NCBI GenBank assembly: GCA_022425195.1
Contig: JAKMFX010000008.1
Coordinates: forward strand, 1-43,227
Source of the DNA: Flavobacteriales bacterium
GTDB lineage: Bacteria > Bacteroidota > Bacteroidia > Flavobacteriales > UBA7430
DNA: 43,227 nt
Direction: 5' to 3'
Of this stretch, positions 1,488 through 43,227 are shown in pieces. Made by a program: the position numbers and the translations under genes. Each line of letters starts with the position of its first letter. Positions within the stretch are counted from its first letter, which is position 1. Under the pieces are notes generated by a model, which did no database searches, was not told where the DNA came from, and worked only from the letters and a program-made list of their open reading frames with translations.

Positions 1488-1589
1488 TTTCTGTGGTTTT
1501 TTTGTTAAGCAAATTTAATTCAATTCTTCAAAAAAGCCTACTGGATTTGAGTGTTAATAACATCGTTAAGAATGTTTTCTTGGAGAATA

Positions 1590-1622
1590 AAAAAAAGAGC
1601 CAACATTTGTTGGCTCTTTTTT
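1590..1622 (-). terminator. bidirectional intrinsic terminator
   Basis: GAGCCAACA and its complement form a 9-bp stem with a 2-base loop, flanked by an A run on one side and a T run on the other. On the minus strand it directly follows the stop codon of the CBM9-like lipoprotein gene (1623), so the GH16 gene downstream depends on readthrough or its own promoter. Confidence 0.85.
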
Positions 1623-2906: not shown

Positions 2907-2910
2907 CTGA

Positions 2911-3939: not shown

Positions 3940-3956
3940 CGATATAGTTTTTTAAA

Positions 3957-5750: not shown

Positions 5751-7678
5751 TAGAAAGTTAGTTTAAGTTCTAAAATCGTTTCTGTTCCTTTGAATTGATC
5801 TCGTACAAAGTTTTTGTCCTCAAATTGGAACCAACGATGTCTAAGAAATACTGAGGTGTTTTTTGCAATGGTGTAATCTAGTCCTAATCCGTAGCCTTCG
5901 CCAAACTGATTTCTTGGTCGACCATTGTCTTCACTGATATCCGTTTCATAATTGGCAATGGTTCTTTCAAGACCAAAGTAGCTACTCAAAACAAACTTGC
6001 TATTTAAGGCAAAGTAAGCTTCTAGTTCATTGCTGTATTGACGAACGTATGCTTCATCTGTAAATTGAGGGAGTGGAGACCATTCTTTTTGTACAGAAGA
6101 AAATTTACTCAGTGCGAAGATGTACAATCTACTTCCAAAAGCTTTTGGATGATATTTTGCTTGAAGCTCAAGCGCTCCAAAGGCTTTTTTTCTCTTGACA
6201 CCATCCGTGTTAACGGTTTGATAAACGTCTCTGTATCCAACAGAGTACCTGCCGTAGGGTCCTTCGAGTTTTGGAGGATGAGGAAGAGATGGGTCGTTCG
6301 GCCATCTCCAGATTCTAGAACGCGTTAGTGCATTGACTTGGTGTCCATAAGTGATTTGATCGCTTAACGCATCAATTTCTATGGAGTTTCCTATACCCAA
6401 AGATATGGTTAACTCATCTAGATTAACTTCCGTATTTAGGTTGATTCCTTGACGGTTATTACTCATGCTACCCACAGAAGTCATAGAACTGGCAAAAGGA
6501 AGATTGAGATCTTCAGTGTTTGTTGCGTCTTTTATGGATGAATTGCTAAAAATAGCGTTGTTGTTGACAACTTCAGGGGCAATTCTGAAGACGTGTGTTT
6601 CAAAGCTTAGTTTGTCGTCAAAGAATTTCGGTGTCTTAATTTTGGTGTGTATGGCTTCTCCCCATCCATAATCAGGTTCTGAGTCGGAACCAAGGTATCT
6701 ACCAGCCCCAACCTCCATAAGCACAGAGAATTTTGATAGTAGGAATTGCGATTCCAGAGTAAGCACATTAAACCCAATCACATCTGAGTTTAAACTATCT
6801 GTGTAGGTATGGTTGTTAAAGGTGTTGATACCGATAAAACCATCAGCAGTGCTTTTTCTTATTTGTCCACCGTAGGCTATGTTTGGAACGGTGTCAAGAC
6901 CTCCGTATAAATCCGTTTTACCTACCATAGATACTAGGGAAAGTCCTCCCGGTAAATTACTACCGCTTATGATAAGTCCTGTGAAAGGTTTTTCACCCCA
7001 CCGTGCGTCTTGAGAAATGTTACCTCGTTTGTAGAAGTCAAAATAACGTCGCTCAACACTAGATTCTAATGGGTCCCATGGCGCTCTTTCAAATAGGGTG
7101 AAGCGATTGTACCCTTTGTAGGAGGCAAGAGTTAAATCACTCAAAGAGGTCCAATGGATACCACCTGCTTGAACACCAAAAGAACCAAAGTCTGTATCAA
7201 AATTTCCATATAGGTTAATTCCTAAATGTACATTTAGGTTTTGACCTTGCAGCGCTCTTTCAGTGACTTTCGAACCGTATTGTGTTCGAATGTTGTTACC
7301 GTTTAAGAATTGGTAGGTGTAAAAGTCAAAGCCCCAAGATGTTTTTTTTGAGGGTCTTCCTGAAAAACGCAGTGTTAGCGTTGGCATTTGACTGTCATCT
7401 CCAATGAAAAGGTGATTGGCAGGTTTATTTGCATAGTATTGTTTTGGATCATCAGGTTGATCTTGTCTTAATCCCAAATAATTGTAGTGCGTATAGGTTC
7501 CTAAAAAGCGATATTCACCACTTACTTTAAAAGTGTAAAGCTTTGGAGATTCCGTTTTTGGGAATAAACCTATCTCATTGGTATTACCCTCATTAAAGCT
7601 TAGATTGTTTTGGGCATGAGCCACAAAACCAAACAGCATGAAGAAGGCGAGAAAACCTATTGTTTTTTTTAGTTGCAT
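5750..7678 (-). CDS. outer-membrane beta-barrel protein (first of pair)
   Basis: The 642 aa product has a signal peptide (MQLKKTIGFLAFFMLFGFVAHA/Q) and ends in a beta strand with terminal Phe (TILELKLTF), as expected for an OM barrel. Repeated amphipathic strands and aromatic girdle residues run throughout (for example GVQAGGIHWTSLSDLTLASY). No plug, TonB box or SusC signature is visible. The next gene starts within its stop codon (TAATG), so the two barrels are a coupled pair. The gene upstream, a GH2-like hydrolase, ends 18 bases before it. Likely role: passage or surface handling of the glucan fragments; the family name and substrate are unknown to me. Confidence 0.75.
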   Translation of the reverse strand: MQLKKTIGFLAFFMLFGFVAHAQNNLSFNEGNTNEIGLFPKTESPKLYTFKVSGEYRFLGTYTHYNYLGLRQDQPDDPKQYYANKPANHLFIGDDSQMPTLTLRFSGRPSKKTSWGFDFYTYQFLNGNNIRTQYGSKVTERALQGQNLNVHLGINLYGNFDTDFGSFGVQAGGIHWTSLSDLTLASYKGYNRFTLFERAPWDPLESSVERRYFDFYKRGNISQDARWGEKPFTGLIISGSNLPGGLSLVSMVGKTDLYGGLDTVPNIAYGGQIRKSTADGFIGINTFNNHTYTDSLNSDVIGFNVLTLESQFLLSKFSVLMEVGAGRYLGSDSEPDYGWGEAIHTKIKTPKFFDDKLSFETHVFRIAPEVVNNNAIFSNSSIKDATNTEDLNLPFASSMTSVGSMSNNRQGINLNTEVNLDELTISLGIGNSIEIDALSDQITYGHQVNALTRSRIWRWPNDPSLPHPPKLEGPYGRYSVGYRDVYQTVNTDGVKRKKAFGALELQAKYHPKAFGSRLYIFALSKFSSVQKEWSPLPQFTDEAYVRQYSNELEAYFALNSKFVLSSYFGLERTIANYETDISEDNGRPRNQFGEGYGLGLDYTIAKNTSVFLRHRWFQFEDKNFVRDQFKGTETILELKLTF

Positions 7679-7696
7679 CTGTTTAAGGTCTTTGGA

Positions 7697-9046
7697 TTAT
7701 TCCGGAATCGCTAATTCTCGGGTTTTCATTTTGACAGGAGTACTTTGTGGCATGTCTTTGTCTCGGGGATTTACAAAGAATGGGATGTTGGCATAGGCCA
7801 ATCGGTCCTCACTGTCGTTAACGTAAACAAAAAGGCGGTATGGTCCTTCTTCTTTAGGTGCTTTAAAGGTCACCGTTTCACCTGAGTTCTTTTTTATCAA
7901 ACCTGTCATGGCAGGGGGTTCTTTTTCAAGGTCTCCTCCGGCTTTTGTGTTGGTACTCTCTGGGTAGATTTTATAAACGTATTTTAGTTTATCATTGCTG
8001 TCATCAGATACAAATACGTTTGCTGAATACATTTCTTCCGCGATCAAATAAATATCATCTCCTTTTTGTTGACCGTCTAGGCTTAGGCTGTCCATGGAGG
8101 GAGCTCTGTTTTCAGGCCATTCTCCTTTCCAAGATCTTTCCACCACATCCAGGACTTCAGAACTTTGTCCTCCGTTGGAGAAGAGTCCATACCAGGTGGC
8201 AGTAGTTTCCTGCTTTTGCCCCCAAAGGAATACGTAGGATCCTATGCACATTTCCTGATCCGGGTAGATGTGCGTGTTGTATCTTTTGAAGTAGCTGTCA
8301 GCCTTTTCTCTACTGGTTTGTTCGATAGGAGCAGACCATTTGGTTTTAGCCACTTCCCAGTGTCCGTTAGGTCCCCACTCAGCAATGATGTAAGGTCCAG
8401 TCCAACCGGAAGCTCTAATTTTATCTCGGATGATTCCCACTTCCCCATAGGTGTTGATGGCGTAGATGTCTATGTCGGGAGCATTTTGCATGATGAGCTC
8501 TACTTCCTTTTCATCTAAACCGGCTGTAACGGTATTTGTTGGGTGGTTTGGATCCACTTCATGGATCATTTTTGCAATGTCTTGAACCACATTCCATACT
8601 TTAGTGTTGGAGTAGAATAAATCCACTTCATTTCCAATGGACCACATCAATAGGGCAGGGTGGTCTTTGTATTTCTTCACCATTTTTGTGAAGTATTCAA
8701 GCTGTGCCTTATTGGCCGCTTCATTGTCATAGTCATAACCATGACGCTCGTGTTGCACCCAAAGCCCCATCATAACGGTTAGGCCTAGTTCGTGAGCTTT
8801 GTCTAACACTTCTTGTGCATCATCAACACTCCATGTTCGAATGGAGTTTCCACCACGTTCTACAACTTCTTCCATATATCCCAGTCCACCAGCACCTTTG
8901 ATGTAGTAAGGCTCTCCACCTCTAAAAAGTTGCCAATTTCCATCGACTTGTTTGACCTCAACTTTTATAGCTTGAGCGGAACTCGTGCTGAAAGCGAATA
9001 AAACAAGAAGGGGCATAATGATTCGTACTAAACTCATCTTTCTCAT
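7697..9046 (-). CDS. GH2-like TIM-barrel glycoside hydrolase, secreted
   Basis: The body is a (beta/alpha)8 glycosidase of the GH-A clan resembling the catalytic domain of family 2. Numbered from the GTG at 9064, the acid/base motif is SIGNE (N145-E146) and the candidate nucleophile E229 sits in IIAEWGPNG; other hallmarks are GGNSIRTW and KDHPALLMWSIGNEV. A C-terminal beta domain (~345-440) follows the barrel. The frame is open to a GTG at 9064, but that codon directly abuts a terminator T tract, so I place the start at the ATG at 9046, giving the signal peptide MRKMSLVRIIMPLLVLFAF..AQA. The usual jelly-roll domains of full GH2 enzymes are absent, so assignment to GH2 proper is uncertain. With a GH16 and glucan-binding proteins nearby, a beta-glucan exo- or endo-glucanase is the likely role. 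Confidence 0.8.
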   Translation of the reverse strand: MRKMSLVRIIMPLLVLFAFSTSSAQAIKVEVKQVDGNWQLFRGGEPYYIKGAGGLGYMEEVVERGGNSIRTWSVDDAQEVLDKAHELGLTVMMGLWVQHERHGYDYDNEAANKAQLEYFTKMVKKYKDHPALLMWSIGNEVDLFYSNTKVWNVVQDIAKMIHEVDPNHPTNTVTAGLDEKEVELIMQNAPDIDIYAINTYGEVGIIRDKIRASGWTGPYIIAEWGPNGHWEVAKTKWSAPIEQTSREKADSYFKRYNTHIYPDQEMCIGSYVFLWGQKQETTATWYGLFSNGGQSSEVLDVVERSWKGEWPENRAPSMDSLSLDGQQKGDDIYLIAEEMYSANVFVSDDSNDKLKYVYKIYPESTNTKAGGDLEKEPPAMTGLIKKNSGETVTFKAPKEEGPYRLFVYVNDSEDRLAYANIPFFVNPRDKDMPQSTPVKMKTRELAIPE

Positions 9047-9064
9047 GTGGTTTTGTTTAAACAC

Positions 9065-9100
9065 AAAAAACCTACCTAATTTTGGTTAGGTAGGTTTTTT
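9065..9100 (-). terminator. intrinsic terminator between CBM protein and GH2-like gene
   Basis: CCTACCTAA and its complement form a 9-bp stem with a TTTTGG loop, flanked by A6 and T6, so it can act in both directions. It sits just 10 bases past the stop of the upstream gene and 18 bases before the ATG of the next. Confidence 0.85.
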
Positions 9101-9110
9101 AAAGTGTTTG

Positions 9111-10874
9111 TTACTTTTTAATCAGTTTGCTGTGAAATAGGTCACCGTTGATGTCGGTAATTTTCAGTGTGTATATACCTATCGGTAGCGTTGAAATTTC
9201 GATTACTTTGCTGTTTTTGTTCACTTGAACAATTTGACCCGTAAGGTTGTATATTTCAACGCTTGTAAAGTCTAGATCAGAGATTGTAATAAAGTTATTT
9301 GCAGGGTTAGGGTATATCAAAGACAATTTGTTGTTTCCTTCTTCTAGGTTAAGTTCACCACAAGGCGTCCCACCGTAATCTGCACAATTTTCTGCATTAA
9401 ATCCATTTTCATAGTAACCAAAAGATTCAGAATAAATACAACCACCCCATTCAGGTATGTCATCACAAGAAGTGTAGGCACAAAGAAGGTTATTGTATTG
9501 GTCTTTTGCAGCAATCGTAGCAGCAGGGTCATAGTTCGTTGCATTTTCATCCATACATCCAGGTACAGCAGGGACTTCCATGCCACAGCTTCCGTATTTC
9601 ACTAGGTCTAGAGTCTTGTTGCTACTACCAACGACAACAAATCTATCATCGTATTGACCAGTAGTACATCCATCTGCAGCCAGTGGATTCTTGTCTTCAA
9701 AACCGTTCCAATCATCACCATTGGTTGGTGTATAATTTCTGTATTTATATTTGTAGGTTTTCCCCTTGTCTAAAGCTAAGGTTACCGACCATATTCCTGA
9801 ACCGTCGTCTGTCATTACATGACCAGCGTTTCCGAAATCTCCACCGGCTACATAAACTCCTCCTTCGTTGATGTCTTCAACGTCCGACATGTCCACTTGG
9901 AATGTAACATCTACGGTTTCAGCTACAGGCGCTGTGTTGTCAATGGTTTGACCCGACAATCTGATGTCATCGAAGTAGTACGTTGAGTTTTCTGAACCGT
10001 CACCCACTTCACCTAAGTTGAAAATAACAACAAGGTTAGTAAATAAGTCAGCCGGTTGTTCTTCACCAAAGTCAAAAGAAAGTTCTTCCCATTGATTCGC
10101 AACAGAAATGGTCTTATCGATGGTTCCAGATGATTCTCCAGTACCCGCCTCATATTTTATCTGTATTGGAGTACCTGCTTTAGGGGAGTATACCTTTATC
10201 TTAAGAACGTTGTCTTCAGAGAAGTCTACTGGTTTTGTCGTCAAAATGGTACCTGCCCATATTTGACCTCCATTACGAACAACTTTAGCAACTTGATTAC
10301 TTGCATTGATTCCAGATTTGGAAGGATTTTCAGCAAGCTCAATGGAAGCACCATCAAAGGCAGAAGTTTCGTATGAAGTACCCTCAAAATTAATAGGTAG
10401 GTTTGAACCGTAAGAACAAGTTCCATTCTCTTGTGTAGCAATGGAGTTGAAGTTTAGGGCATTTTCATCCATACAGCCTTTGATTACAAGTCCGTCACAT
10501 GATGAGCCACAAGTTCCGAAAGTGATTCCAGTTACATTGTCTGATCCTGCTGTCCATTGACGGTTGGCATAGGTTGCATTGTCCGTTACAGGAGTACATG
10601 AAAAGTCTCCACCTGAAAGTAAATCTTCCATACTTCCATTAACGACCAATTTGTATTCCATGTCATCGGTTGGTGCATCAGGAAAAGTGAAGGTCCAAGT
10701 GCCGTCACCATTGTCGTCAGCTGCAGGTCCACCTGAAGGATTCCAGTCCCACCAAGGGCCTGTTAATCTAACTGAAGAGGCATCGCCACATACTTTTGTA
10801 GTTATGGTCAGTTGAGCGTGTGCAACTAAACCAGCGAATAAAAATAAAAATGAGAGTAAAAGTGTTTTTTTCAT
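9111..10874 (-). CDS. multidomain carbohydrate-binding protein with type IX sorting tail
   Basis: After the signal peptide (..LFAGLVAHA/Q) comes a domain (about 22-125) resembling CBM20/48 or AMPK-beta modules (VRLTGPWWDWNPSGG, DNGDGTWTFTFPDAPTDDMEYKL). A short Cys/Asp element GCMDENALNFNS follows, then a jelly-roll domain (~160-315, ending YYFDDIRLSG). A second CBM48-like module (~325-430, VDMSDVEDINEGGVYVAGG) and a second element GCMDENATNYDP come next. The protein ends in a type A type IX sorting domain (LSLIYPNPANNFITIS to the C-terminus). No catalytic site is visible. It is probably exported by the type IX system and held at the surface as a glucan-binding protein. It has its own terminator, so it can be made in larger amounts than the genes after it. 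Confidence 0.85.
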   Translation of the reverse strand: MKKTLLLSFLFLFAGLVAHAQLTITTKVCGDASSVRLTGPWWDWNPSGGPAADDNGDGTWTFTFPDAPTDDMEYKLVVNGSMEDLLSGGDFSCTPVTDNATYANRQWTAGSDNVTGITFGTCGSSCDGLVIKGCMDENALNFNSIATQENGTCSYGSNLPINFEGTSYETSAFDGASIELAENPSKSGINASNQVAKVVRNGGQIWAGTILTTKPVDFSEDNVLKIKVYSPKAGTPIQIKYEAGTGESSGTIDKTISVANQWEELSFDFGEEQPADLFTNLVVIFNLGEVGDGSENSTYYFDDIRLSGQTIDNTAPVAETVDVTFQVDMSDVEDINEGGVYVAGGDFGNAGHVMTDDGSGIWSVTLALDKGKTYKYKYRNYTPTNGDDWNGFEDKNPLAADGCTTGQYDDRFVVVGSSNKTLDLVKYGSCGMEVPAVPGCMDENATNYDPAATIAAKDQYNNLLCAYTSCDDIPEWGGCIYSESFGYYENGFNAENCADYGGTPCGELNLEEGNNKLSLIYPNPANNFITISDLDFTSVEIYNLTGQIVQVNKNSKVIEISTLPIGIYTLKITDINGDLFHSKLIKK

Positions 10875-10919
10875 CTTACCTGTCTTAGGGGGTTGAGATT
10901 TTGTTAATATTTTTCAGAT

Positions 10920-10928
10920 GTAAATATA
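10920..10928 (-). promoter_or_regulatory. candidate -7 box of the glycan locus
   Basis: TATATTTAC on the minus strand, 46 bases before the start codon at 10874, matches the Bacteroidota -7 element except at the last two bases. I could not find a good TTG about 20 bases upstream, so this is a candidate only. Confidence 0.35.
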
Positions 10929-11013
10929 CAAAAAAAACAATATGTATATATCGTTTAGATGCATATTAACGTAAAAATTTTCCCGAATTTATAAAAAAAG
11001 TAACGATTATGAA

Positions 11014-11060
11014 ACAAAAAAAGCGTTAACATGTCTCGTATGATAAATGTTAACGCTTTT
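11014..11060 (-). terminator. intrinsic terminator after phosphorylase gene
   Basis: A 10-bp stem GCGTTAACAT / ATGTTAACGC with a 14-base loop is followed on the minus strand by a T-rich tract. It starts 18 bases after the phosphorylase stop and separates that operon from the glycan-binding operon. Confidence 0.8.
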
Positions 11061-11078
11061 CTAAATATGTATAAGTAA

Positions 11079-13832
11079 CTAGGTCAGTTCAATCGTGATT
11101 TTGTTACTGGTCTTATTGAACAACTCTTTAAAATTGTCAAGCGTTATGGAAGCATTCTTTTTGCCTCTCTTGCCTTTGACTTTATGGCCGTTAATGATTA
11201 CTTCTCCAATACCGTACTCTCCAAAGTCGAGACCTTTCTCGTTTTGGTAGGTAACATCGATGGCGTAGCCTCCGTAGTTAGTAGAGATATGAGCAACCCC
11301 ATCCTTGTTGAAGTATTCTTTTGAAAGTTTAGGTTCCAAATGAAGATCACCAAAAACACCTTTAACACCAAATATTTGTGTAATCAGTGTGAGTAGGTAC
11401 CAAGATGACGAACCTGTTAAGTAGGCATAGGCCCCTTTGTTCTGATTGTCAAAGTAAGAAGGTACCCCGGGGAATATCTTGGCAGTAGCCGTATTGTTTG
11501 CAATCTCATAAACCTCTTTCATGATTTCATTGGCTTGTGCCACGAGTCCATGGTCATAAAGTGCATATGCCAGCATGATGTTTTGTTGTACCCATTTACT
11601 TCCGTGCTCTTTATAGCCGTATACAAATCCGGTGATACGACCGATATTAAGATCAATATTTTTGAACTCAGAAGTCAAGCGAATGCCAGGTATGCCATCG
11701 TCTTTTAGAACCTTTTTGATGGATTCGTAGACTTCGGCGGACATTTTTTTGTCTGCAATCTTACATAGGATTGGCATTACCTGAGAGGTCAAGTCCATCA
11801 TCACGCCGTCTTCTTTTTCACCACCAATTCTATTTTCTAGGTTGTCGTAGTGTCCGTTGAAGAATCGGTCACCTTCTTTGGTTTCAACAATTTCTTGCTC
11901 AAGAATGTGCGCTGAGATGTGTTTTGATTTGCTTTCCAAATCAATGATAAGGTCATCAATTAAAACCATCTTTTTATTTCCCGAAACGGAATGGGCAACA
12001 CTCTTGAAGTACTTGTCGAGAAGTTCTCTTTTCGCTTTTGGCGATTGGTAGTCAATACGGTATTGTCCAGGAAGATAATCCAATAGAAGGGTGATTTCTT
12101 CCAAAATTGCAATCGATTGCACCCCAGAAGCTTTAATTTTCTTCAGTATGTCGGTAAGAATGATAAAGTTGTAAGCGTAAAAACTGAAGAAACATACGCT
12201 GGCTCCTTTTTCACGGGCCATGTCGTATGTATCATTCCAATCGGCTCCTTCCAGAAGAAGGATGTTTTGATCACTTACATTGTAGAAGGCAGATAGCTGC
12301 TGAATCAATAAGTGTTCAAAAATCGAAGCTGTATAAATTTCATTGTCTGAAGTTCTTTGGGAATGCCCTTGTTCGTCTTCCCAGTTGCCATCAATCATCT
12401 TGCTTCGATTGATGAACATATCTTTCCAGTAGGTGATTTCTTTGTTTAAGATGTCAAGATCACCAGTTTGGTTCAGGTAAAAGTTCAATACAAATACTGG
12501 CCATGTACCGTGGTCACACCAAGTACGAGGGATGTTGTTTCGGTCGGCTTTGAACTCGCCTGGTTGCTCTCCAATGATGGTAGCGTTCGAACCGTCGATA
12601 CGAATTCCTTTGAAACAATTGACAATCTCTTCGTGAGCACTTTTAGGGTCTACCAAGAAAATAGACAATAAATCTTGCCAAAGGTCTCTCCAGCCTCTTC
12701 CACCTCTACCGTAACCGTAGTCCGGCAAGAAGGAGTTACCGAAAATTTGACGACACTTTACTTGGTATTCAATCCATTTCACCCAATTGTCGTAGTGTTT
12801 GTCACCGGTATGGATGTCAACACTATTTAATTTTTCTTTCCAGAAGTTTAGGGTTGCATCTAGGATTTTGTCTACTTTTTCAACGGTGGAGTATTTCTTT
12901 TTCCAAGCTTTTAAGTCTTCCGTATGATCTGTAATACCGTGAACAATCACATAGTCTACTTTTTCTCCTGGAGCTAATGTTTTCTCTTTGAAGTTGAGTC
13001 CTGCTACCGCTTCTTTACCGTGAAGTTCTAGGTCCGTTAATATTGGAGCTTTGAGGTCTTTGTATATCGCTTCAGGATTGTCTAAAGATCCACTTTGTCC
13101 AATAAAATCGTGAAGCCTGGCCCAAATACCTTCTGGCTTGGCTCCTTTTTCTCCAAATCCTAAAACCGCATAGTTGGTGTAGTTAACGGAGTGACTGCTC
13201 TCATCATGCATGATTTTTGGCTTGATGCGAACGCCATATTCTTCCACAAAATTTTCTTGGAACATGGTGGTTACCTGTCTGTGGTCTCTTACATTGTCTG
13301 CAGAGCGACCAAACATTGGCAAGGCATAGGTAGGGCGGAAGGTTTGGTTTTCTGTGCCGGTATTGGTAACTGTTATTTTGAGTAGCTCTACAAAATCATC
13401 TCCTTCAGGGACAAAGGTGGTGATGGTGGTTTCAAGTCCCGTTTCGTTTTGCTTTCTTTTGGTGGTAAATGCACCAATATTTGCCGAAAGGGAGTAGTCA
13501 TCTTTGGGTTGGTCCCACTTGTTTGACTTTTGGAACACACTTTGTCCTGTAGCTGACCAAGGTTCTTTATTGTCTGCCTTGATCCAGAAGTTTCTGCTCG
13601 AAATGTTTCGATGAATTTCTTCGGTTACGGTCGGCGTGGTCAGGTAGTGGTGAAAATCTTTACACACATCCCCCTTGAGCTCCGGAGTTACAAATGATTT
13701 CATCCCTTTGGTGTTCATTAAAGGGAAGTACAATACAGGTAAATGGTTTGCGTTTTCTACGTAGAATGAACCATCATTTTCGTTACTAAATTTCCAGCTA
13801 ACACCGGTCATGGATGTTTTTTTTGTCGACAT
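11079..13832 (-). CDS. GH94-type beta-glucan disaccharide/oligosaccharide phosphorylase
   Basis: The 917 aa protein has no signal peptide and is therefore cytoplasmic. It has the layout of inverting GH94 phosphorylases: N-terminal beta-sandwich (~1-310), linker helices, and an (alpha/alpha)6 barrel (~345-800). The motif GADWND at 529-534 contains the general-acid Asp. YGRGGRGWRDLWQD (374-386) and RTWCDHGTWPVFV are substrate-site motifs of the family. Such enzymes use phosphate to split a beta-linked glucose dimer or oligomer, giving glucose-1-phosphate and saving one ATP. The length is close to that of laminaribiose and cellobiose phosphorylases; given the GH16 neighbour, a beta-1,3 substrate is my guess, but linkage cannot be read here. 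GH149/GH161 are related alternatives. Its ATG overlaps the transporter stop (TAATG), coupling import to phosphorolysis. Confidence 0.9.
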   Translation of the reverse strand: MSTKKTSMTGVSWKFSNENDGSFYVENANHLPVLYFPLMNTKGMKSFVTPELKGDVCKDFHHYLTTPTVTEEIHRNISSRNFWIKADNKEPWSATGQSVFQKSNKWDQPKDDYSLSANIGAFTTKRKQNETGLETTITTFVPEGDDFVELLKITVTNTGTENQTFRPTYALPMFGRSADNVRDHRQVTTMFQENFVEEYGVRIKPKIMHDESSHSVNYTNYAVLGFGEKGAKPEGIWARLHDFIGQSGSLDNPEAIYKDLKAPILTDLELHGKEAVAGLNFKEKTLAPGEKVDYVIVHGITDHTEDLKAWKKKYSTVEKVDKILDATLNFWKEKLNSVDIHTGDKHYDNWVKWIEYQVKCRQIFGNSFLPDYGYGRGGRGWRDLWQDLLSIFLVDPKSAHEEIVNCFKGIRIDGSNATIIGEQPGEFKADRNNIPRTWCDHGTWPVFVLNFYLNQTGDLDILNKEITYWKDMFINRSKMIDGNWEDEQGHSQRTSDNEIYTASIFEHLLIQQLSAFYNVSDQNILLLEGADWNDTYDMAREKGASVCFFSFYAYNFIILTDILKKIKASGVQSIAILEEITLLLDYLPGQYRIDYQSPKAKRELLDKYFKSVAHSVSGNKKMVLIDDLIIDLESKSKHISAHILEQEIVETKEGDRFFNGHYDNLENRIGGEKEDGVMMDLTSQVMPILCKIADKKMSAEVYESIKKVLKDDGIPGIRLTSEFKNIDLNIGRITGFVYGYKEHGSKWVQQNIMLAYALYDHGLVAQANEIMKEVYEIANNTATAKIFPGVPSYFDNQNKGAYAYLTGSSSWYLLTLITQIFGVKGVFGDLHLEPKLSKEYFNKDGVAHISTNYGGYAIDVTYQNEKGLDFGEYGIGEVIINGHKVKGKRGKKNASITLDNFKELFNKTSNKITIELT

Positions 13833-15373
13833 TACTTCACTAATTGTTTTTCGAGTTCTTCTAATGATTTTCCTTTGGTCTCAGGCAGTATCTTAACCAA
13901 GATAAAAAAGCCGATTAATGCTATGATTCCGAAGATAAAAAATGTGAGTGAATTCCCTAGATTGGACAATTCCCATGGGAAAATAAGTTGCACAACAGAG
14001 CTGATGAAAGAATTTACAAAAGCAATAGACCCTATTGCCAGTCCTCTGTATTTTAGTGGGAATAATTCAGATAATAGCACCCACATGACAGGTCCAAGGG
14101 AGAAAGCAAAACAAGCAACAAACCCTAAAATACCGATTAAGATTAATGTAGAGTTAATTGTGGTTGCAGCTTCTAATATAGCACCGTCGTTTTTGTTAAA
14201 CACATTTGCGCCAATAATGCTTTTGATCTCATTTTTAAAGTCAACATCATTTGTATAGACTTTGTCTGCTATGGATTCTAAATCACTTGAATTCGAAAAC
14301 TCGAATTGATCAATATGCTCCTGATTTAATTGATATGTAGCTTGGTTAAATCCGAATGCACATACCAGTAAACTTACGGAGATACCTGCAATCCCAATGA
14401 GCAACAAAGGTCTTCGACCCATTCTGTCTATTAGGTAGATAGCGACAAAAGTAAATACTACTGAAATGGTACTTAATAGGACACCCGAAGAAAAGGCAGC
14501 ATCCGTACCAATACCTGTTTGTTTGAAGATGGAGGTGGCGTAAAAATAAACGGCGTTAATACCCGTAATTTGTTGTAAAACCCCAACAACTAAACCAACG
14601 ATCAGAATAAATCGCAAGGAAGGTTTAAGTAACTCTATAATTTTTACATCAGACTTCTTTTGGTCGGTAGCAGTATTTTCTTCAATAGATTTAATCTCTG
14701 AGTTTCCCACTTCATCTCCATGAATGTTTATACATACTTCTTTAGCTTCGGCGATATGACCATTTAAATACAACCATCTCGGGCTTTTTGGTACAAAAAA
14801 CAAAAGCAAGAAATACAACACTGCAGGTATAAATTCGACACCTAGCATCCATCTCCAAACATTTTCATCGGTAAGTGTAGCACTTTCCACTGTGTTGTAT
14901 TTGTTAAAGAAGTAATTGCTTAGAAAGGCGGCAAAAAAACCAAAAACAATATTAAGCTGCTGAAGGGAAACCAATTTACCTCTGTTTTCAGCCGTAGAAA
15001 TTTCGGCAATGTACATTGGTGCTAAGACCAGTGCTGCACCAAATGCAAAACCTCCAATCATCCTAGCAATGTAAAGCATTTCATAAGAAGATGCTAGCGC
15101 TGAAAAGATCGCAGATACGGCGTATAGTAGCGCTACAATAATTAACAACTTCTTTCTTCCTATCGCATCACTTAATCTTCCGGAAAAAAGCATGGCAATC
15201 ATTGCGGCAAAAGATGGAGAGCTTACCACCCATCCAGATTGGATTTCTGTCAAGTCAAATTCTGGACCAGCAAAAGTCATCACACCAGATATGATTCCTG
15301 CATCAAATCCAAAAAGAAAACCGCCTAAGGCGACGATGAGACTGATGGATATTATCTGTGATTTATTTTTCAT
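13832..15373 (-). CDS. MFS sugar:H+ symporter (sugar porter family)
   Basis: A twelve-helix major facilitator of the sugar porter family (GalP/XylE/GLUT-like), 513 aa, in the inner membrane. Family motifs visible: GRLSDAIGRKK (65-75) after helix 2, PKSPRWL (195-201) after helix 6, DRMGRRPLLLIG after helix 8, and PETKGKSLEELE at the C-terminus. An extra polar loop of about 60 residues (around 345-405) lies between helices 9 and 10 on the periplasmic side. It is the first gene of the operon and is coupled to the phosphorylase gene by a TAATG overlap, so the cargo is probably the disaccharide or short oligomer phosphorolysed by that enzyme, though glucose is equally possible. It diverges from zwf across a 207-base promoter region. 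Confidence 0.93.
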   Translation of the reverse strand: MKNKSQIISISLIVALGGFLFGFDAGIISGVMTFAGPEFDLTEIQSGWVVSSPSFAAMIAMLFSGRLSDAIGRKKLLIIVALLYAVSAIFSALASSYEMLYIARMIGGFAFGAALVLAPMYIAEISTAENRGKLVSLQQLNIVFGFFAAFLSNYFFNKYNTVESATLTDENVWRWMLGVEFIPAVLYFLLLFFVPKSPRWLYLNGHIAEAKEVCINIHGDEVGNSEIKSIEENTATDQKKSDVKIIELLKPSLRFILIVGLVVGVLQQITGINAVYFYATSIFKQTGIGTDAAFSSGVLLSTISVVFTFVAIYLIDRMGRRPLLLIGIAGISVSLLVCAFGFNQATYQLNQEHIDQFEFSNSSDLESIADKVYTNDVDFKNEIKSIIGANVFNKNDGAILEAATTINSTLILIGILGFVACFAFSLGPVMWVLLSELFPLKYRGLAIGSIAFVNSFISSVVQLIFPWELSNLGNSLTFFIFGIIALIGFFILVKILPETKGKSLEELEKQLVK

Positions 15374-15403
15374 TACAGTAAGTTTTAGTTTGTTTGGGGG
15401 TCG

Positions 15404-15437
15404 GCAAATATATTATAAAAAATCTTGTATTCCACAC
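15404..15437 (-). promoter_or_regulatory. promoter of transporter-phosphorylase operon
   Basis: TATATTTGC at 15412-15404 (minus) is an exact -7 element. The matching -33 position reads GTGTG rather than TTG, so it is a weaker promoter or needs an activator. The start codon is 31 bases downstream. Confidence 0.6.
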
Positions 15438-15456
15438 ACTGAAGCTATATATTTGC
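15425..15456 (+). promoter_or_regulatory. promoter of zwf-pgl-edd-eda operon
   Basis: TTG at 15425-15427, 20 bases, then TATATTTGC at 15448-15456: a full match to the Bacteroidota housekeeping consensus. It implies a 5' leader of about 115 bases before zwf, long enough to hold a regulatory site. Confidence 0.75.
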
Positions 15457-15580
15457 GTCGAAATTACGCTTATTATAAGGTGTTGCATCCCATTGGTGTT
15501 TCTACCACAAATTATATCCCTTTTAAAATTTAAGCCCTTACAGATAGTGGTTTAGAAGTTTTTTAGCAAAAATTACATTG

Positions 15581-17047
15581 ATGATGAACGAAAACGATAA
15601 ACATACAACAGGGGCATTGAATGATGCTGACATTGTTGTTTTTGGTGGGTTAGGTGATTTGGCCATCCGTAAACTATATCCGGCATTGTATCACAGGCTT
15701 CAAGCCGGACAGGTAAACACAAATTCCAAAGTTTACGCCATCTCAAGAGCCGAAAAAAGCGCCACTGAATTTACGGACCTTCTTAAGGAAAAATTAAGTG
15801 TTAGCCTGAGTGGTGAAAAGCCTGAAGATGTTCAGAAGCTCATTGACATGTGTACCTATGTACGAGCAGATCTTTCACAAGACGATGCTTTGGCTGATCT
15901 AAAGCCTTACCTGAGAGAAGGTAAAGAGATTGTTCGGGTGTTTTACTTTTCTACATCTTCATCATTGTTTGGTAGCATCACTAAAAACTTAAGTGCTCAG
16001 AATTTAATCAATGAGCAATCTAGAGTCGTATTGGAAAAACCTTTAGGGAATGACTCAGCTTCTTCGAAAGCCATTAATGATGAGATCTCTGGATATTTCA
16101 AAGAGTCACAAATTTTCAGAATTGACCATTACCTAGGTAAGGAGACGGTTCAGAATTTAATGGTTCTTCGTTTCGCTAACGATTTGTATGAAAATGCTTG
16201 GAATTCCCAAAATATAGAAAACGTTCAGATCACGGTTTCTGAGTCTTTGGGTGTAGAGACCAGAGCGAATTACTACGATAAATACGGCGCATTACTTGAT
16301 ATGGTGCAAAACCACCTCTTACAATTGTTGTGTTTGGTAGCCATGGAGCCGCCAAGTGTCCTTGGTGCAGATAATGTTCGTGACGAAAAACTTAAAGTGC
16401 TCAAATCACTTCGCGTTTTTGACGAGAAGATGATCCAGAAGCAAACGGCCAAAGGTCAATATGCTAAAGGCTCAATTAAAGGGGAGGCTGTATCTGGTTA
16501 TTTAGAAGAATTAGATGACGCTAGCTCAAATACTGAAACTTTTGTAGCGATTCGCGCAAATATTGATAATTGGAGATGGGCAGGCGTTCCTTTTTACTTA
16601 AGAACAGGTAAGCGAATGTCCAAACGCCATTCAGAAATTGTGATTAATTACAAGAATGTACCTCACAATATTTTTCCTGAGAAGAAACCCATAGACAACA
16701 ATAAGTTGGTGATTAGTCTTCAGCCTGAGGAGCGTATCGAACTTGTTCAGAACGTTAAGGTCCCCGGTCCGGGCGGCTACCGATACAAACCTACCTCTTT
16801 GGTACTCGATTACAGTTCTTCTTTTAACGATCGTTTCCCTGAAGCCTATGAACGTTTGATTATGGATGTGATTAGAGGAAATCAAACGTTGTTCATGCGC
16901 AAAGACGAGGTAGAAGCCTCATGGGATTGGGTAGATTCAATTACTAAATTGTGGAAAGAAACAGGAATGAAAAACAAGTCCTATGAGGCCGGAACGGATG
17001 GCCCTGGTGACGATGTTTTATTAAAAGGACATGAGTGGAATGAGTAA
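15581..17047 (+). CDS. zwf: glucose-6-phosphate 1-dehydrogenase
   Basis: Oxidises glucose-6-phosphate to 6-phosphogluconolactone with NADP+ (or NAD+), the first step of the oxidative Entner-Doudoroff route. The nucleotide-binding motif FGGLGDLAIRKL lies at about 20-31, and the active-site signature RIDHYLGKE near residue 182 includes the substrate Lys and catalytic His. The length (about 488 aa) is normal. The frame extends to a TTG at 15578 but the adjacent ATG at 15581 (or 15584) is the sensible start. It is first in a tight operon: pgl starts inside its last codons. Control is likely from the promoter at 15425-15456, perhaps with the Nudix-type regulator encoded at the operon's far end. 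Confidence 0.96.
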   Translation: MMNENDKHTTGALNDADIVVFGGLGDLAIRKLYPALYHRLQAGQVNTNSKVYAISRAEKSATEFTDLLKEKLSVSLSGEKPEDVQKLIDMCTYVRADLSQDDALADLKPYLREGKEIVRVFYFSTSSSLFGSITKNLSAQNLINEQSRVVLEKPLGNDSASSKAINDEISGYFKESQIFRIDHYLGKETVQNLMVLRFANDLYENAWNSQNIENVQITVSESLGVETRANYYDKYGALLDMVQNHLLQLLCLVAMEPPSVLGADNVRDEKLKVLKSLRVFDEKMIQKQTAKGQYAKGSIKGEAVSGYLEELDDASSNTETFVAIRANIDNWRWAGVPFYLRTGKRMSKRHSEIVINYKNVPHNIFPEKKPIDNNKLVISLQPEERIELVQNVKVPGPGGYRYKPTSLVLDYSSSFNDRFPEAYERLIMDVIRGNQTLFMRKDEVEASWDWVDSITKLWKETGMKNKSYEAGTDGPGDDVLLKGHEWNE

Positions 17048-17762
17048 CAAGAGCCTTAATTTGACCGAGCAGGTTTTCGATAACGCAAGCATACTTGAAG
17101 ATGCTTTAGCTCATGAGATTGCAACGGAGCTAAGAAATCAATTGGATAAAAACCAACAAGCGAAACTTCTTTTGTCGGGGGGTAGTACTCCGGTCAACTT
17201 GTACGCTAAATTGTCTCATTTTGATTTGGATTGGTCCAATGTATTGGTTGGCCTGGTTGATGAACGCTATGTTTCTTCTGACGATAAAGACAGTAACGAA
17301 CGATTGATTAAATCTTCCCTGATTCAGAATAAAGCTTCAGAAGCTGTCTTTGTGGGAATGGTATTCGATACGGAGAATTCCGATGAAAACTTAAAACAAG
17401 CAATCGATCAGAATCAACCTTTTTCTGACGCATCTACATGTGTTTTGCTAGGCATGGGGACGGATGCCCACACTGCATCACTATTCCCTGGAGATGCCAA
17501 CTCACTCCTTGGCTTACAAAATGAAAAGGGACAAGCCCCATTAGTTTGTACCACATCACCTAACGAACCTAAGCAAAGAATAAGTTTTACGCTAGAAAGT
17601 CTTTTGAACACCAAAAGACTCTTTTTATATTTTACCGGATCGGAAAAAATGAACTTGTTTGCTGAAGCAAAAAGCACACTCGATCCAATTCAATTTCCGA
17701 TTTCTTCATTCATTCACCAGGAGCAAACAAAGCTTGAGCTGTTTTGGGCTAACAAAAAATAA
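17040..17762 (+). CDS. pgl: 6-phosphogluconolactonase
   Basis: Hydrolyses 6-phosphogluconolactone to 6-phosphogluconate. Family signatures: LLLSGGSTPVNLY (~43-55), LVDERYVS (~72-79) and GMGTDAHTASLFPG, the last being the hallmark of the DevB/SOL family. I chose the ATG at 17040, which gives an ATGAGTAA overlap with the zwf stop; an in-frame ATG at 17031 would overlap by 17 bases instead. At about 240 aa it has the usual bacterial length. edd follows 2 bases after its stop, so translation is probably coupled through the whole operon. Confidence 0.95.
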   Translation: MSNKSLNLTEQVFDNASILEDALAHEIATELRNQLDKNQQAKLLLSGGSTPVNLYAKLSHFDLDWSNVLVGLVDERYVSSDDKDSNERLIKSSLIQNKASEAVFVGMVFDTENSDENLKQAIDQNQPFSDASTCVLLGMGTDAHTASLFPGDANSLLGLQNEKGQAPLVCTTSPNEPKQRISFTLESLLNTKRLFLYFTGSEKMNLFAEAKSTLDPIQFPISSFIHQEQTKLELFWANKK

Positions 17763-17764
17763 TC

Positions 17765-19567
17765 ATGAACAAGACGATTTTAGAAGTAACTCAGAGAATT
17801 ATTGACCGCAGTAAGGATACTCGGTCTCAGTACTTGAAACAAATGAAATCTCAGGCGGCTGATACGGTTTCTCGTTCTGCATTGTCATGTGGGAATATTG
17901 CCCATGCGATGGCCAGTTGTTCAGATCACGAGAAGACGGACTTGATTGGAAGTAAAAAAGCCAATATTGGAATCATCACAGCCTTTAACGATATGTTGTC
18001 GGCACATAAGACCTACGAAGACTATCCGAAGTCCATTCGTACCAGTGCACTTAAATACAATGCTGTAGCTCAGGTTGCAGGAGCTGTTCCTGCCATGTGT
18101 GACGGTGTCACTCAAGGTGAGGCAGGGATGGATTTATCGCTATTCAGTAGAGATGTCATAGCCCTCTCAACGATTGTGGGCTTGTCTCACAATATGTTCG
18201 AATCTGCCTTGTGTCTGGGTATCTGTGATAAAATCGTTCCAGGAGAATTGATAGGCGCCCTAAAGTTTGGGTATCTACCTATTATCTTCGTTCCAGGGGG
18301 ACCCATGAAAACAGGAATCTCTAACGAGGAAAAAGCAAAAGTTCGAAGAGAATATGCGGAAGGTCTCGTGGATAGAGATGCTTTATTGAAATCAGAATCT
18401 AAGGCATACCACTCTCTGGGAACATGTACGTTCTATGGTACAGCGAATAGCAATCAAATGTTGATGGAAATCATGGGCTTGCAATTGCCAGGTTCTTCAT
18501 TCGTGAACCCAGATACCCCACTTCGTACCGCATTAACGGATTATGCGGTTAAGGTGGCTGCCGAAACGACAAGCTTGGGCGATAATTACCGTCCTATGTA
18601 CGAGATTGTGTCTGAAAAGACCATCGTAAATGCCATTATTGGTCTCTTGGCCACAGGTGGGTCTACCAACCTAACCATCCACTTAGTTGCCATTGCTAAA
18701 TCTGCGGGTATACAAATCAACTGGCAAGACTTTTCAGATTTATCCGCAGTAATACCACTACTTACCAAGATGTATCCTAACGGTTCTGCAGATGTGAACT
18801 ATTTCCAAGCAGCAGGAGGGATGTCTTATCTAATCAAGTCTTTATTAGAGAATGGTCTTCTTCACGAAGACGTTCATACCATCTTAGGCCAGGGATTGAA
18901 TACTTATACACAAGAGCCATTCCTTCAGGATGGTGAATTGATATGGAGAAAAGGTCCTGATAAGTCATTAGACACAGCAGTACTTACGTCTGTGGAAAAT
19001 GCCTTTTCAAAAACAGGCGGTGTAAGAGTCTTAAAAGGGAATCTTGGAACCTCTGTAATTAAAATATCAGCAGTAAAAGAAGAAAACTGGATTGTTGAAG
19101 CCCCTGCGGTTATTTTTGAAGATCAAGAAGAACTTTTAGAGGCTTTCAAAAGAAAGGAATTAAACAAGGATTTTATTGCCGTTGTCCGTTACCAAGGGCC
19201 AAAAGCCAAAGGAATGCCTGAATTACACAGGTTGACTCCTGTGTTGAGTATATTACAAAACAACGGTTACAAAGTAGCTTTAGTGACTGATGGTCGAATG
19301 TCAGGTGCATCAGGAAAGGTGCCTGCAGCCATTCATCTGTCCCCTGAGGCTATGGACGGAGGACTGCTTCCAAAACTTAAAGATGGCGATCTTTTGAGGC
19401 TTGATGCAGTCACTGGAGAGTTAACCTGTTTTAACGAAGCAGAGGTGCAAGCAAGAACGGCTCCAGAAAAACCTGCCATCCATCAAGAAGGTTGTGGTAG
19501 AGAGTTGTTTGGGAATTTTAGAAAATTAGTTCAACCAAGTGAGGAAGGTGCTTCCGTATTATTTTAA
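17765..19567 (+). CDS. edd: 6-phosphogluconate dehydratase
   Basis: Converts 6-phosphogluconate to 2-keto-3-deoxy-6-phosphogluconate (KDPG). The 600 aa protein belongs to the IlvD/Edd iron-sulfur dehydratase family; Edd rather than IlvD is supported by the context and by motifs such as TAFNDMLSAHKTYEDYP, MCDGVTQGEAGMDLSLFSRD and CTFYGTANSNQMLMEIMG. Cys112 and Cys221 in the latter two are the expected cluster ligands. It lies between pgl (2 bases) and eda (5 bases), completing the Entner-Doudoroff set. Confidence 0.96.
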   Translation: MNKTILEVTQRIIDRSKDTRSQYLKQMKSQAADTVSRSALSCGNIAHAMASCSDHEKTDLIGSKKANIGIITAFNDMLSAHKTYEDYPKSIRTSALKYNAVAQVAGAVPAMCDGVTQGEAGMDLSLFSRDVIALSTIVGLSHNMFESALCLGICDKIVPGELIGALKFGYLPIIFVPGGPMKTGISNEEKAKVRREYAEGLVDRDALLKSESKAYHSLGTCTFYGTANSNQMLMEIMGLQLPGSSFVNPDTPLRTALTDYAVKVAAETTSLGDNYRPMYEIVSEKTIVNAIIGLLATGGSTNLTIHLVAIAKSAGIQINWQDFSDLSAVIPLLTKMYPNGSADVNYFQAAGGMSYLIKSLLENGLLHEDVHTILGQGLNTYTQEPFLQDGELIWRKGPDKSLDTAVLTSVENAFSKTGGVRVLKGNLGTSVIKISAVKEENWIVEAPAVIFEDQEELLEAFKRKELNKDFIAVVRYQGPKAKGMPELHRLTPVLSILQNNGYKVALVTDGRMSGASGKVPAAIHLSPEAMDGGLLPKLKDGDLLRLDAVTGELTCFNEAEVQARTAPEKPAIHQEGCGRELFGNFRKLVQPSEEGASVLF

Positions 19568-19572
19568 GCGAT

Positions 19573-20148
19573 ATGAGTCAAAATAACATCAGAACCGTAT
19601 TAGAGGGCAACCCGGTTGTACCCGTTGTAAAAATTCAATCCCTAGATGAGGTTGTCCCATTGGTGACGGCTCTTCAAGAGAATAACATCAACTGTATCGA
19701 GATCACTTTGCGTACTGACTGCGCAATTGATGCATTAAAACTGGCTAAAGAGTGCTCTAACGACTCTTTTTCTGTAGGTGTGGGAACGGTAGTCAACACA
19801 AAACAACTTGCTCAAGTAATTGAAGCTGATGTTGATTTCATTGTATTACCAGGCTTAAACGATGAGCTTGTTGATGCCCTCAAAGACGTCAGTATACCTT
19901 TTCTACCCGGCGTAGTTACTCCTAGTGAAATGATGCAATGCTTAAGTTTGGGATGGGATACATTGAAATTCTTTCCAGCCAATATTGCTGGAGGGCTTAG
20001 CGCTCTTAAAACGTATTCACAGGTGTTTTCTCAAATTAAGTTCTGTCCTACGGGAGGAATCTCTAAGGGGAACTATCCGGAATATCTAGCCCTAGATAAC
20101 GTTATTTCTGTAGGAGGATCTTGGATTCAAAAAGACTTGAACTTATAG
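19573..20148 (+). CDS. eda: KDPG aldolase
   Basis: Cleaves KDPG to pyruvate and glyceraldehyde-3-phosphate through a Schiff base. The catalytic Lys132 is in TLKFFPAN and the general acid/base Glu43 in CIEITLRT; GVGTV and FLPGVVTPSEMM are further family motifs. The length, 191 aa, is slightly short of E. coli Eda (about 213) but the class I TIM barrel is intact. It is the last gene of the operon; its stop is one base from the end of the convergent regulator gene, and no intrinsic terminator is visible between them. Confidence 0.95.
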   Translation: MSQNNIRTVLEGNPVVPVVKIQSLDEVVPLVTALQENNINCIEITLRTDCAIDALKLAKECSNDSFSVGVGTVVNTKQLAQVIEADVDFIVLPGLNDELVDALKDVSIPFLPGVVTPSEMMQCLSLGWDTLKFFPANIAGGLSALKTYSQVFSQIKFCPTGGISKGNYPEYLALDNVISVGGSWIQKDLNL

Positions 20149-35042: not shown

Positions 35043-35504
35043 TTAGAGAAGAATCTGTTTGTCTATACTTTGCTCAAGGGAAATGATGGTTTCCGTTCTT
35101 TGTATACCCGTTACCGATTGAATTTCTTCATTCAATACTTGTCTCATGTGTTTGGTGTTTTTACAGCGTATCTTTGCAAAGATGCTATACACACCTGTCG
35201 TGTAATGAGCTTCAACGATTTCAGGGACTTGATTTAATTGTTCAATAACGTCCTTGTAGTTAGACCCTTTTTCCAAGTAAATTCCTAAGAAGGAAGTCAT
35301 GTCGTAACCTAATAACTCATAATTTACATTGAGTCGACTCTTTTTTACAATCCCAGCATCTTCCATCTTTTTCATGCGAACATGAATGGTTCCGGGAGAT
35401 ACAATCAATTTTTTGGCGATTTCAGTGTATGGAGTTTTCGCATCCCGCATTAAAATCCCTAAAATACTTCGATCTATATTGTCGATTTGATAATTTGCAT
35501 CCAT
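35043..35504 (-). CDS. Lrp/AsnC family transcriptional regulator
   Basis: A 153 aa feast/famine regulator. The N-terminal winged helix (IDNIDRSILGILMRDAKTPYTEIAKKLIVSPGTIHVRMKKMEDAGIV in outline, ~7-53) is followed by the alpha-beta ligand-binding/oligomerisation (RAM) domain (~65-150, with VPEIVEAHYTTGVYSIFAKI). Such proteins form octamers, bind amino acids and usually repress their own gene. It is a single gene, convergent with pdhC. The inverted repeat at 35540-35564, against its candidate -7 box, is a plausible autoregulatory site. Confidence 0.92.
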   Translation of the reverse strand: MDANYQIDNIDRSILGILMRDAKTPYTEIAKKLIVSPGTIHVRMKKMEDAGIVKKSRLNVNYELLGYDMTSFLGIYLEKGSNYKDVIEQLNQVPEIVEAHYTTGVYSIFAKIRCKNTKHMRQVLNEEIQSVTGIQRTETIISLEQSIDKQILL

Positions 35505-35589: not shown

Positions 35590-35623
35590 TTTGTAATTTA
35601 AAAGAGATTTGTATTATATTTAC
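35590..35623 (+). promoter_or_regulatory. promoter of tRNA-like gene copy 1
   Basis: TTTG at 35590-35593, 21 bases, then TATATTTAC at 35615-35623. The -7 box and the spacing are the same in copy 2, although the spacer sequences differ. Transcription should start about 15-20 bases before the RNA body. Confidence 0.7.
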
Positions 35624-35644: not shown

Positions 35645-35752
35645 TGTGGGGTGATGAAACTGGCAGACATGCCCTCCTGTCTCGAGGGTGAAGATTCTGG
35701 AATAAATCATTAGACTAACCACTTCGTGGAGGTTCGAATCCTTCTCCTACAG
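35645..35752 (+). tRNA. tRNA-like RNA copy 1: class II body, GUC anticodon, very long variable arm
   Basis: The 108-nt segment folds as a full cloverleaf: acceptor TGTGGGG/TCCTACA (U1-A72, two G-U pairs), U8 G9, D stem ATG/CAT with a Leu-like loop AAACTGGCAGA (A14, G18 G19 present), anticodon stem CCCTC/GAGGG, loop CTGTCTC (anticodon GUC at 35679-35681, U37), a 39-nt variable region (35689-35727), T stem GGAGG/CCTTC with loop TTCGAAT, discriminator G. CCA is not encoded. Within the variable region GAAG and TGG can pair with CCA and CTTC around a 4-nt bulge and 18-nt loop. A true tRNA-Asp(GUC) is class I with a 5-nt variable loop, so this is not the normal one. It may be a noncanonical tRNA, an amino-acid donor outside translation, or a regulatory/decoy RNA. 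Confidence 0.75.
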
Positions 35753-35758
35753 CAAACA

Positions 35759-35791
35759 AAATCCTCTTGAGAAATCTCAAGAGGATTTTTT
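35759..35791 (+). terminator. terminator of tRNA-like gene copy 1
   Basis: A 14-bp stem AAATCCTCTTGAGA / TCTCAAGAGGATTT with a 2-base loop and a T tract, starting 6 bases after the RNA body. The stem is identical in copy 2. Confidence 0.9.
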
Positions 35792-36033: not shown

Positions 36034-36067
36034 ATTGCAATGAATGCTCCAAGCGTTGTATATTTAC
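36034..36067 (+). promoter_or_regulatory. promoter of tRNA-like gene copy 2
   Basis: ATTG at 36034-36037, 21 bases, then TATATTTAC at 36059-36067: the same -7 box and spacing as copy 1. The 21 bases between box and RNA body are also nearly the same in both copies (CAGTxAATCACxACAACA). Confidence 0.7.
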
Positions 36068-36088: not shown

Positions 36089-36197
36089 TGTGGGGTGATG
36101 AAATTGGCAGACATGCCCTCCTGTCTCGAGGGTGAAGATCCTGGAATAAATCTTAGTGACTAACCACTTCGTGGAGGTTCGAATCCTTCTCCTACAG
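36089..36197 (+). tRNA. tRNA-like RNA copy 2: class II body, GUC anticodon, very long variable arm
   Basis: This 109-nt copy is identical to copy 1 in acceptor stem, D stem, anticodon arm (CTGTCTC loop, GUC) and T arm. It differs by C-to-T in the D loop, T-to-C in the variable-arm bulge, and a few changes plus one added base in the variable-arm loop (AATAAATCTTAGTGACTAA, 19 nt). The base before the body is A here and C in copy 1, so the acceptor stem is 7 bp and not an 8-bp tRNA-Sec type. All differences spare the stems, which supports a selected RNA structure. It has its own promoter and terminator. Discriminator G, no encoded CCA. Confidence 0.75.
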
Positions 36198-36203
36198 CAA
36201 GTA

Positions 36204-36236
36204 AAATCCTCTTGAGAAATCTCAAGAGGATTTTTT
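36204..36236 (+). terminator. terminator of tRNA-like gene copy 2
   Basis: The same 14-bp stem and T tract as after copy 1. It ends 15 bases before the convergent lipase-like gene and may weakly stop that transcript too. Confidence 0.9.

Positions 36237-43115: not shown

Positions 43116-43227
<112 letters not shown>

Follow-up and report, generated by a model that had tools for sequence, protein, structure and literature searches.

A conserved tRNA-like RNA of Bacteroidota and their phages with aspartate identity elements, an amidation signal and AsnC linkage: a possible scaffold for asparagine formation

Results

Gene content of the locus

The window, by which we mean the whole 43,227-nt stretch of DNA that was analyzed, carries two copies of a tRNA-like RNA gene on the forward strand, at positions 35645..35753 and 36089..36198. 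They are 109-110 nt long, share 96% identity and score 132.6 and 127.5 bits, respectively, with our covariance model. A preliminary description of this DNA had reported the first copy, with its loop CTGTCTC, class II body, long variable arm, G73 and U1-A72. All of these features were confirmed from the sequence; the second copy had been missed. Copy 1 extends from position 1 to C74. CCA is encoded in neither copy, and likewise it is absent from the ten ordinary tRNA genes of the same genome that we inspected. A 28-nt core occurs twice in the window, where 0.00 occurrences are expected from shuffles, and this repeat is not due to chance.

The cloverleaf is of class II, with a 7-bp acceptor stem, a 3-bp D stem that is Leu-like, a 5-bp anticodon stem, a long variable arm and a 5-bp T arm with TTCGAAT, followed by G73 and C74. 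In copy 1, the anticodon loop (35677..35683) comprises G34 U35 C36, U37 and C38, and is closed by the stem CCCTC/GAGGG (35672-35676 / 35684-35688), which covaries across homologs. The variable arm of this copy (35690..35725) is built from the stems GAAG/CTTC and TGG/CCA, an internal loop with AAA and CTAA, and an apical stem. Upstream of copy 1 is a Bacteroidetes-like promoter (35590..35623), in which TTTG and TATATTTAC are separated by 21 nt, and this element is common to the upstream regions of most RNA copies in the same family. Copy 2 is preceded by a promoter-like element (36035..36067; TTG, 21 nt, TATATTTAC). Both elements are named after what we take to be the Bacteroidetes promoter consensus. 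Terminator-like hairpins with a T run lie 3' of the two copies (35758..35789 and 36203..36234). All of these elements are on the forward strand.

On the reverse strand, divergent from copy 1, lies a gene for an AsnC-type regulator of the Lrp family (35043..35504), identified by profile, PDB and E. coli AsnC matches. Its best NCBIfam model is AsnC, at 179.9 bits, which is below the cut-off of 227. The best PDB match is 2cg4, AsnC (1.6e-38; next match 4e-25), and the protein is the best match of E. coli AsnC in its own genome (47%).

No tRNA or tmRNA was called in the window by ARAGORN. At gathering score, Rfam finds only the 16S rRNA at the end of the window; the RNA copies match no Rfam 15 family, and a search for an Rfam tRNA match gave none at E up to 10. 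Matches to the Rfam His leader are below gathering and arise from the terminator hairpins, and a tmRNA identity was rejected since neither ARAGORN nor Rfam gives one in the window. The 16S rRNA match is the 5' end of that gene, at 43116-43227, where the contig ends. Elsewhere, positions 654-20148 hold an apparent beta-glucan utilization cluster (GH16-like and other glycoside enzymes, a sugar transporter), followed by Entner-Doudoroff genes, as judged from translations.

Fold and variable arm

The fold is supported by covariation. In 39 class-wide sequences, whose alignment was fitted to the covariance model, the covariation score is 0.408, compared with 0.173 in shuffles and at most 0.101 with the partners slid; changes on both sides are seen at 17 of 29 pairs, and 98.7% of cells pair. 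The same is seen in a MAFFT alignment of 16 sequences that was made independently (8 of 29 pairs; 0.259 versus at most 0.084 slid). For the window copies, the cloverleaf is not what minimum-free-energy folding predicts (z 0.33 and -0.28). Thus, the fold rests on covariation, because thermodynamic folding alone misses it there.

Two other readings of these letters were dropped. A small ORF would run through the RNA from an ATG in the D/anticodon arm, but its frame and stops vary among homologs, one homolog does not have that ATG, and the helices covary. The CCUCC in the anticodon stem could mimic an anti-Shine-Dalgarno sequence, but this stem varies by compensation (CCCGC/GCGGG, CCTCC/GGTGG, CCGCC/GGCGG).

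Across the family, the length of the variable arm varies between 38 and about 100 nt. The arm comprises a stem and an internal loop, in which AAA and CTAA are the best-conserved letters. Many long arms contain an extra module, GGGUUGACCAC (for example L374:4452-4599), that the short forms in the window do not have. We parsed the arm in all but one of 182 sequences; for this module, TTGACCAC is present in 59 of the 181 parsed, and a T-GACC variant in 19 more. In its 3-bp D stem, D loop, A20a and long variable arm, the RNA resembles the class II tRNA-Leu genes of the window genome. The RNA differs from them in having G73, U1-A72, an Asp anticodon loop, and an arm that carries motifs of its own and reaches about 100 nt.

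Distribution in Bacteroidota

Within the same family, 10 of 12 genomes contain the RNA by DNA search. With a covariance model based on 16 sequences, matches of at least 65 bits are obtained in 16 of the 395 genomes searched from the order and in 68 of the 395 from the class. This threshold was chosen by us; ordinary class II tRNAs reach about 61 bits, and we attribute matches of about 25-61 bits to these and other tRNAs. Some of the class-wide absences may be false, because nine candidates per genome were scored in the class search. A pattern of the anticodon arm finds at least 120 stretches among 84,980 species genomes. Among the matches listed (80 loci) are Dyadobacter, Cyclobacterium, Flammeovirga, Marivirga, Runella, Emticicia, Saprospiraceae and Chitinophagaceae, and the named genomes all belong to what we take to be Bacteroidota. 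In the open full-text PMC literature, we identified no paper that describes this RNA. As far as this open literature goes, the family provisionally appears to be undescribed.

In G154 and G238, matches on the coding strand (E 5e-4 and 1e-3) fall within a gene for homologous outer-membrane-like proteins; we regard them as due to chance and reject them as antisense targets. The same judgment applies to the weak antisense matches that the anticodon arm has at L050:1501-1533 and L051:1501-1530, in a conserved ETGGHVFQ stretch of such proteins.

Identity elements

Two sets of sequences were used. Set A2 consists of 39 sequences from the 29 best-scoring loci of the class search, which were not selected by the anticodon pattern; the model was trained on 16 members. 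Set A3 consists of 105 sequences chosen by the anticodon-arm pattern, so its evidence is limited to columns outside that arm. In A2, G34 is present in 38/39 sequences, and U35, C36, C38 and G73 in 39/39 each. At the acceptor end, U1, A72, G2 and C71 are each found in 39/39, and C74 is also invariant (39/39). In A3, U1 is found in 103/104 and A72 in 104/104 of the sequences with letters there. Position 20a, in our own numbering, is A and never U (39/39 in A2). In the same set, G10 is not conserved (G in 8/39), position 37 is U in 36/39 and G in 3/39, and position 33 is U in 28/39 and G in 11/39. The window copies have U33 with U37, and G33 is seen at loci L085, L090, L091, L099, L101, L107 and L112 (families f17, f77 and f80).

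In PMC9976931, the bacterial Asp identity set is given as G73, G34, U35, C36, C38 and G10, and amidation is said to be conferred by U1-A72 and blocked by G1-C72 with U20a. Judged by its letters, the RNA unites the amidation signal with the five strong determinants for Asp, and neither of the amidation blocks is present, as would be expected of a GatCAB substrate. The preliminary description had regarded U37 and U1-A72 as odd. Both are indeed unusual, but U1-A72 is not merely uncommon: it is a known amidotransferase determinant. According to the same source, G1-C72 of bacterial tRNA-Asp aids positioning of the 3' end (PMC9976931), and so U1-A72 may slow AspRS. Taken together, the evidence points to what would be ordinary aspartylation, followed by amidation by GatCAB.

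With the GUC anticodon and the AspRS set present, the RNA might be seen as an odd but decoding tRNA-Asp. However, U33 and a purine at position 37 are expected for decoding, and in this RNA position 37 is mostly U and position 33 sometimes G. Decoding is unlikely for this reason. The RNA also lacks the G1-C72 pair and the class I variable loop of tRNA-Asp, having U1-A72 in 39/39 sequences and an arm of at least 38 nt. It had been noted earlier that the RNA could be the only, and hence essential, tRNA-Asp of its genome. This is not so, since a normal class I tRNA-Asp(GUC) with the loop CTGTCAC lies elsewhere in the window genome, whose own tRNA-Asn has U1-A72. We give a decoding tRNA-Asp almost no credence.

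A long variable arm with G73 would also suit an allo-tRNA-like RNA that is charged with serine by SerRS and carries a missense anticodon. According to PMC7609411, GUC is a common allo-tRNA anticodon, and the allo-tRNAs and the selC* tRNA-Cys described there share with the RNA a class II body and a non-cognate anticodon. The RNA differs from these in its 7/5 acceptor branch, in place of 8/4 or 9/3, and in its anticodon, which is kept as GUC and is not diverse. The bacterial Ser set includes C72, C11-G24 and G30-C40, as stated in PMC9976931. These elements are absent here (A72 in 39/39, U11 in 35/39, C30 in at least 31/39 of A2). Moreover, GUC and C38 would not stay conserved under charging by SerRS, because recognition of the anticodon by SerRS is not expected. 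LeuRS, in turn, requires A73, and the RNA has G73 throughout. Thus, charging with an unexpected amino acid (Ser or Leu), one of the options offered in the preliminary description, is disfavored because A73 and the bacterial Ser set are absent, and we consider serylation very improbable. Of the options offered there, an RNA that does not decode and would carry an amino acid is the best fit.

The AsnC neighborhood

Beside the RNA, one gene family alone recurs widely, that of the Lrp/AsnC regulators. At 103 of 118 loci there are at least 600 nt upstream of the RNA. At 56 of these 103 testable loci (56 of 102 without one duplicate pair), an AsnC-type gene lies directly upstream and is always divergent, with a gap of 122-265 nt (median 168 nt); at the other 47 the upstream gene is not AsnC. 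This arrangement resembles that in E. coli, where asnC is divergent from asnA, and according to PMC4482635, AsnC activates asnA unless asparagine is present. In both cases a divergent AsnC-type regulator stands beside a gene for asparagine synthesis, which is the role that we predict for the RNA. The difference is that an RNA gene takes the place of asnA.

The AsnC linkage, the invariant bases for synthetase recognition and the tandem arrangement of 2-5 copies, seen at 29 of the 118 loci examined, would also suit a regulator or decoy. Such an RNA would titrate AspRS or GatCAB, or report charging, and so tune Asp/Asn metabolism instead of being a route in it. Yet a decoy needs neither an intact acceptor end (G73, C74) nor U1-A72, and these are invariant in 39/39 sequences. 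We regard this explanation as quite unlikely.

Alternatively, the RNA could be an amino-acid donor. The cell-wall tRNA-Gly of staphylococci donates its amino acid in this way. Here AspRS, with or without GatCAB, would charge the RNA, and a transferase would move Asp or Asn to a lipid, peptide or cell-envelope acceptor. The identity evidence is the same as for asparagine formation, and a dedicated protein could be bound by the internal loop conserved in the variable arm, and by the GGGUUGACCAC module of many long arms. However, no transferase was recognized among the recurrent neighbors at these loci, where AsnC is the only widespread family. We see this as unlikely, with a real chance of being right.

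Asparagine enzymes and association with GatB

The window genome has one AspRS (bacterial-type aspS), one AsnRS and GatB. We found in it neither AsnA nor, over cut-off, a match to the AsnB family. The idea of a second AspRS dedicated to the RNA was rejected, as only the one aspS is seen. No GlnRS was found by tblastn with E. coli GlnS, so this genome needs GatCAB for Gln as well, and the presence of the enzyme is no proof in itself.

GatB was searched for in all 83 RNA-bearing genomes from the order and class searches and in 77 chosen genomes without the RNA. It is over cut-off in 81/83 with the RNA, which we take as the presence of GatCAB judged from GatB alone, and in 44/77 without it (pooled Fisher p 1.6e-10, ignoring phylogeny). 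By batch, the counts are 40/40 versus 23/40, and then 41/43 versus 21/37. The two RNA-bearing genomes without GatB are 79% and 66% complete. Every one of the 83 that is more than 79% complete has GatB over cut-off. One genome without the RNA (G009, 59% complete) was counted as lacking GatB and has a partial GatB match at a contig end. In families f17, f31, f50 and f55, some members have neither the RNA nor GatB, and relatives have both. The members without both are G509; G409, G452, G519 and G549, compared with G578 of the same genus; G468 and G640; and G433, G535 and G642.

AsnRS is present in all of the first 80 genomes (80/80). Canonical AsnB (NF006949) is found in 0/40 genomes with the RNA and 8/40 without it, and AsnA in 2/40 and 3/40. 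Proteins of the AsnB family over the TIGR01536 cut-off are found in 31/40 and 36/40, but these are mostly of 600-670 aa and may serve other pathways. This makes TIGR01536 a poor test, and NF006949 was used for this reason. Because many RNA-bearing genomes have AsnB-family proteins, and 2/40 have AsnA, the RNA would not always be the sole route to Asn. As a separate observation, canonical AsnB and GatB never occur together in these 80 class genomes, since all 8 genomes with AsnB are without GatB.

A His at position 31 of AspRS is, as we take it, the mark of the dual-specificity enzyme of P. aeruginosa. No His was found there in any of the 38 sequences, out of 40, that were readable (L, F, K or M instead), with or without the RNA. 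Thus, this position does not discriminate.

Copies in phages

The anticodon-arm pattern matches 22 IMG/VR contigs (L373-L394), and 22/22 hold a whole or nearly whole copy. A variant pattern adds 3 more IMG/VR contigs, the G33-loop pattern gave no match in IMG/VR, and annotated phage and plasmid records gave no match to the RNA. Neighboring phage genes encode terminase, DNA polymerase, exonuclease, a PhoH-like protein and dCMP deaminase (9 proteins tested, 1 unmatched). In 12 of 15 phage stretches scanned, ARAGORN finds no ordinary tRNA; the others (L375, L389 and L393) are tRNA arrays. The phage-borne RNA is a possible auxiliary metabolic RNA.

These viral copies, and the stretches without an ordinary tRNA, would also fit a defensive role, in which the RNA mimics tRNA-Asp and is struck in its place by anticodon nucleases, and phages carry it for that purpose. 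This leaves the AsnC linkage, the GatB association and U1-A72 unexplained, and we consider it improbable.

Discussion

We suggest a role for the RNA as a chimeric tRNA that takes no part in translation and is devoted to the formation of asparagine through AspRS and GatCAB, under control of AsnC. To us, this proposal stands at about an even chance. It is based on the covarying fold, the near-invariant identity sets, the linkage to AsnC, the association of the RNA with GatB and the enzyme set of the window genome. From these we infer charging, amidation, exclusion from the ribosome, release of Asn and the direction of regulation. A discriminating AspRS would read the Asp-type anticodon loop and G73 and attach Asp to the RNA. 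GatCAB, which needs U1-A72, would then convert this Asp to Asn, while normal Asp-tRNA would be rejected because of G1-C72 and U20a. These two steps are proposed because the determinants are known. An AspRS that reads GUC only cannot make Asp-tRNA-Asn, and the chimera would bridge such an enzyme to GatCAB.

On the ribosome, Asn-RNA(GUC) would insert Asn at Asp codons. We propose that U37 (with G33 in some lineages) and the bulky variable arm keep it off, and this follows from the rules for anticodon loops. Asn would then be freed for use by AsnRS, or passed to another acceptor, and release is our guess. To our knowledge, there is no precedent for the turnover of free Asn by way of a tRNA. The divergent AsnC-type regulator probably raises the level of the RNA when Asn is scarce.

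The nearest known system is tRNA-dependent asparagine synthesis, in which a non-discriminating AspRS (ND-AspRS) and GatCAB act on tRNA-Asn. The predicted enzymes and the U1-A72 determinant are alike. This pathway co-exists with AsnRS in some bacteria, according to PMC4206432. Our RNA differs in that it has an Asp anticodon, is not tRNA-Asn and is apparently non-decoding. It would also suit a discriminating AspRS, and Asn would have to leave the RNA.

In a wider form, which is possible and which we hold more tentatively, the RNA would be a metabolic tRNA of Bacteroidota and their phages. It would never decode, would replace a protein asparagine synthetase under AsnC, and would serve phages as an auxiliary metabolic RNA gene.

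Should the mechanism prove wrong, we still found no explanation for a conserved and apparently non-decoding RNA of AspRS type that is linked to AsnC and GatB. If the mechanism is right, the synthesis of an amino acid can run on a dedicated non-coding RNA. In evolution, a tRNA body of Leu type would have received the anticodon loop of an Asp tRNA and an amidation signal, and would have lost the ability to decode. A widespread tRNA-like family would have been missed by gene finders, and phages would gain an RNA rather than a protein metabolic gene. Finally, this would explain the supply of asparagine in GatCAB-bearing Bacteroidota that have AsnRS and are without AsnA or AsnB.
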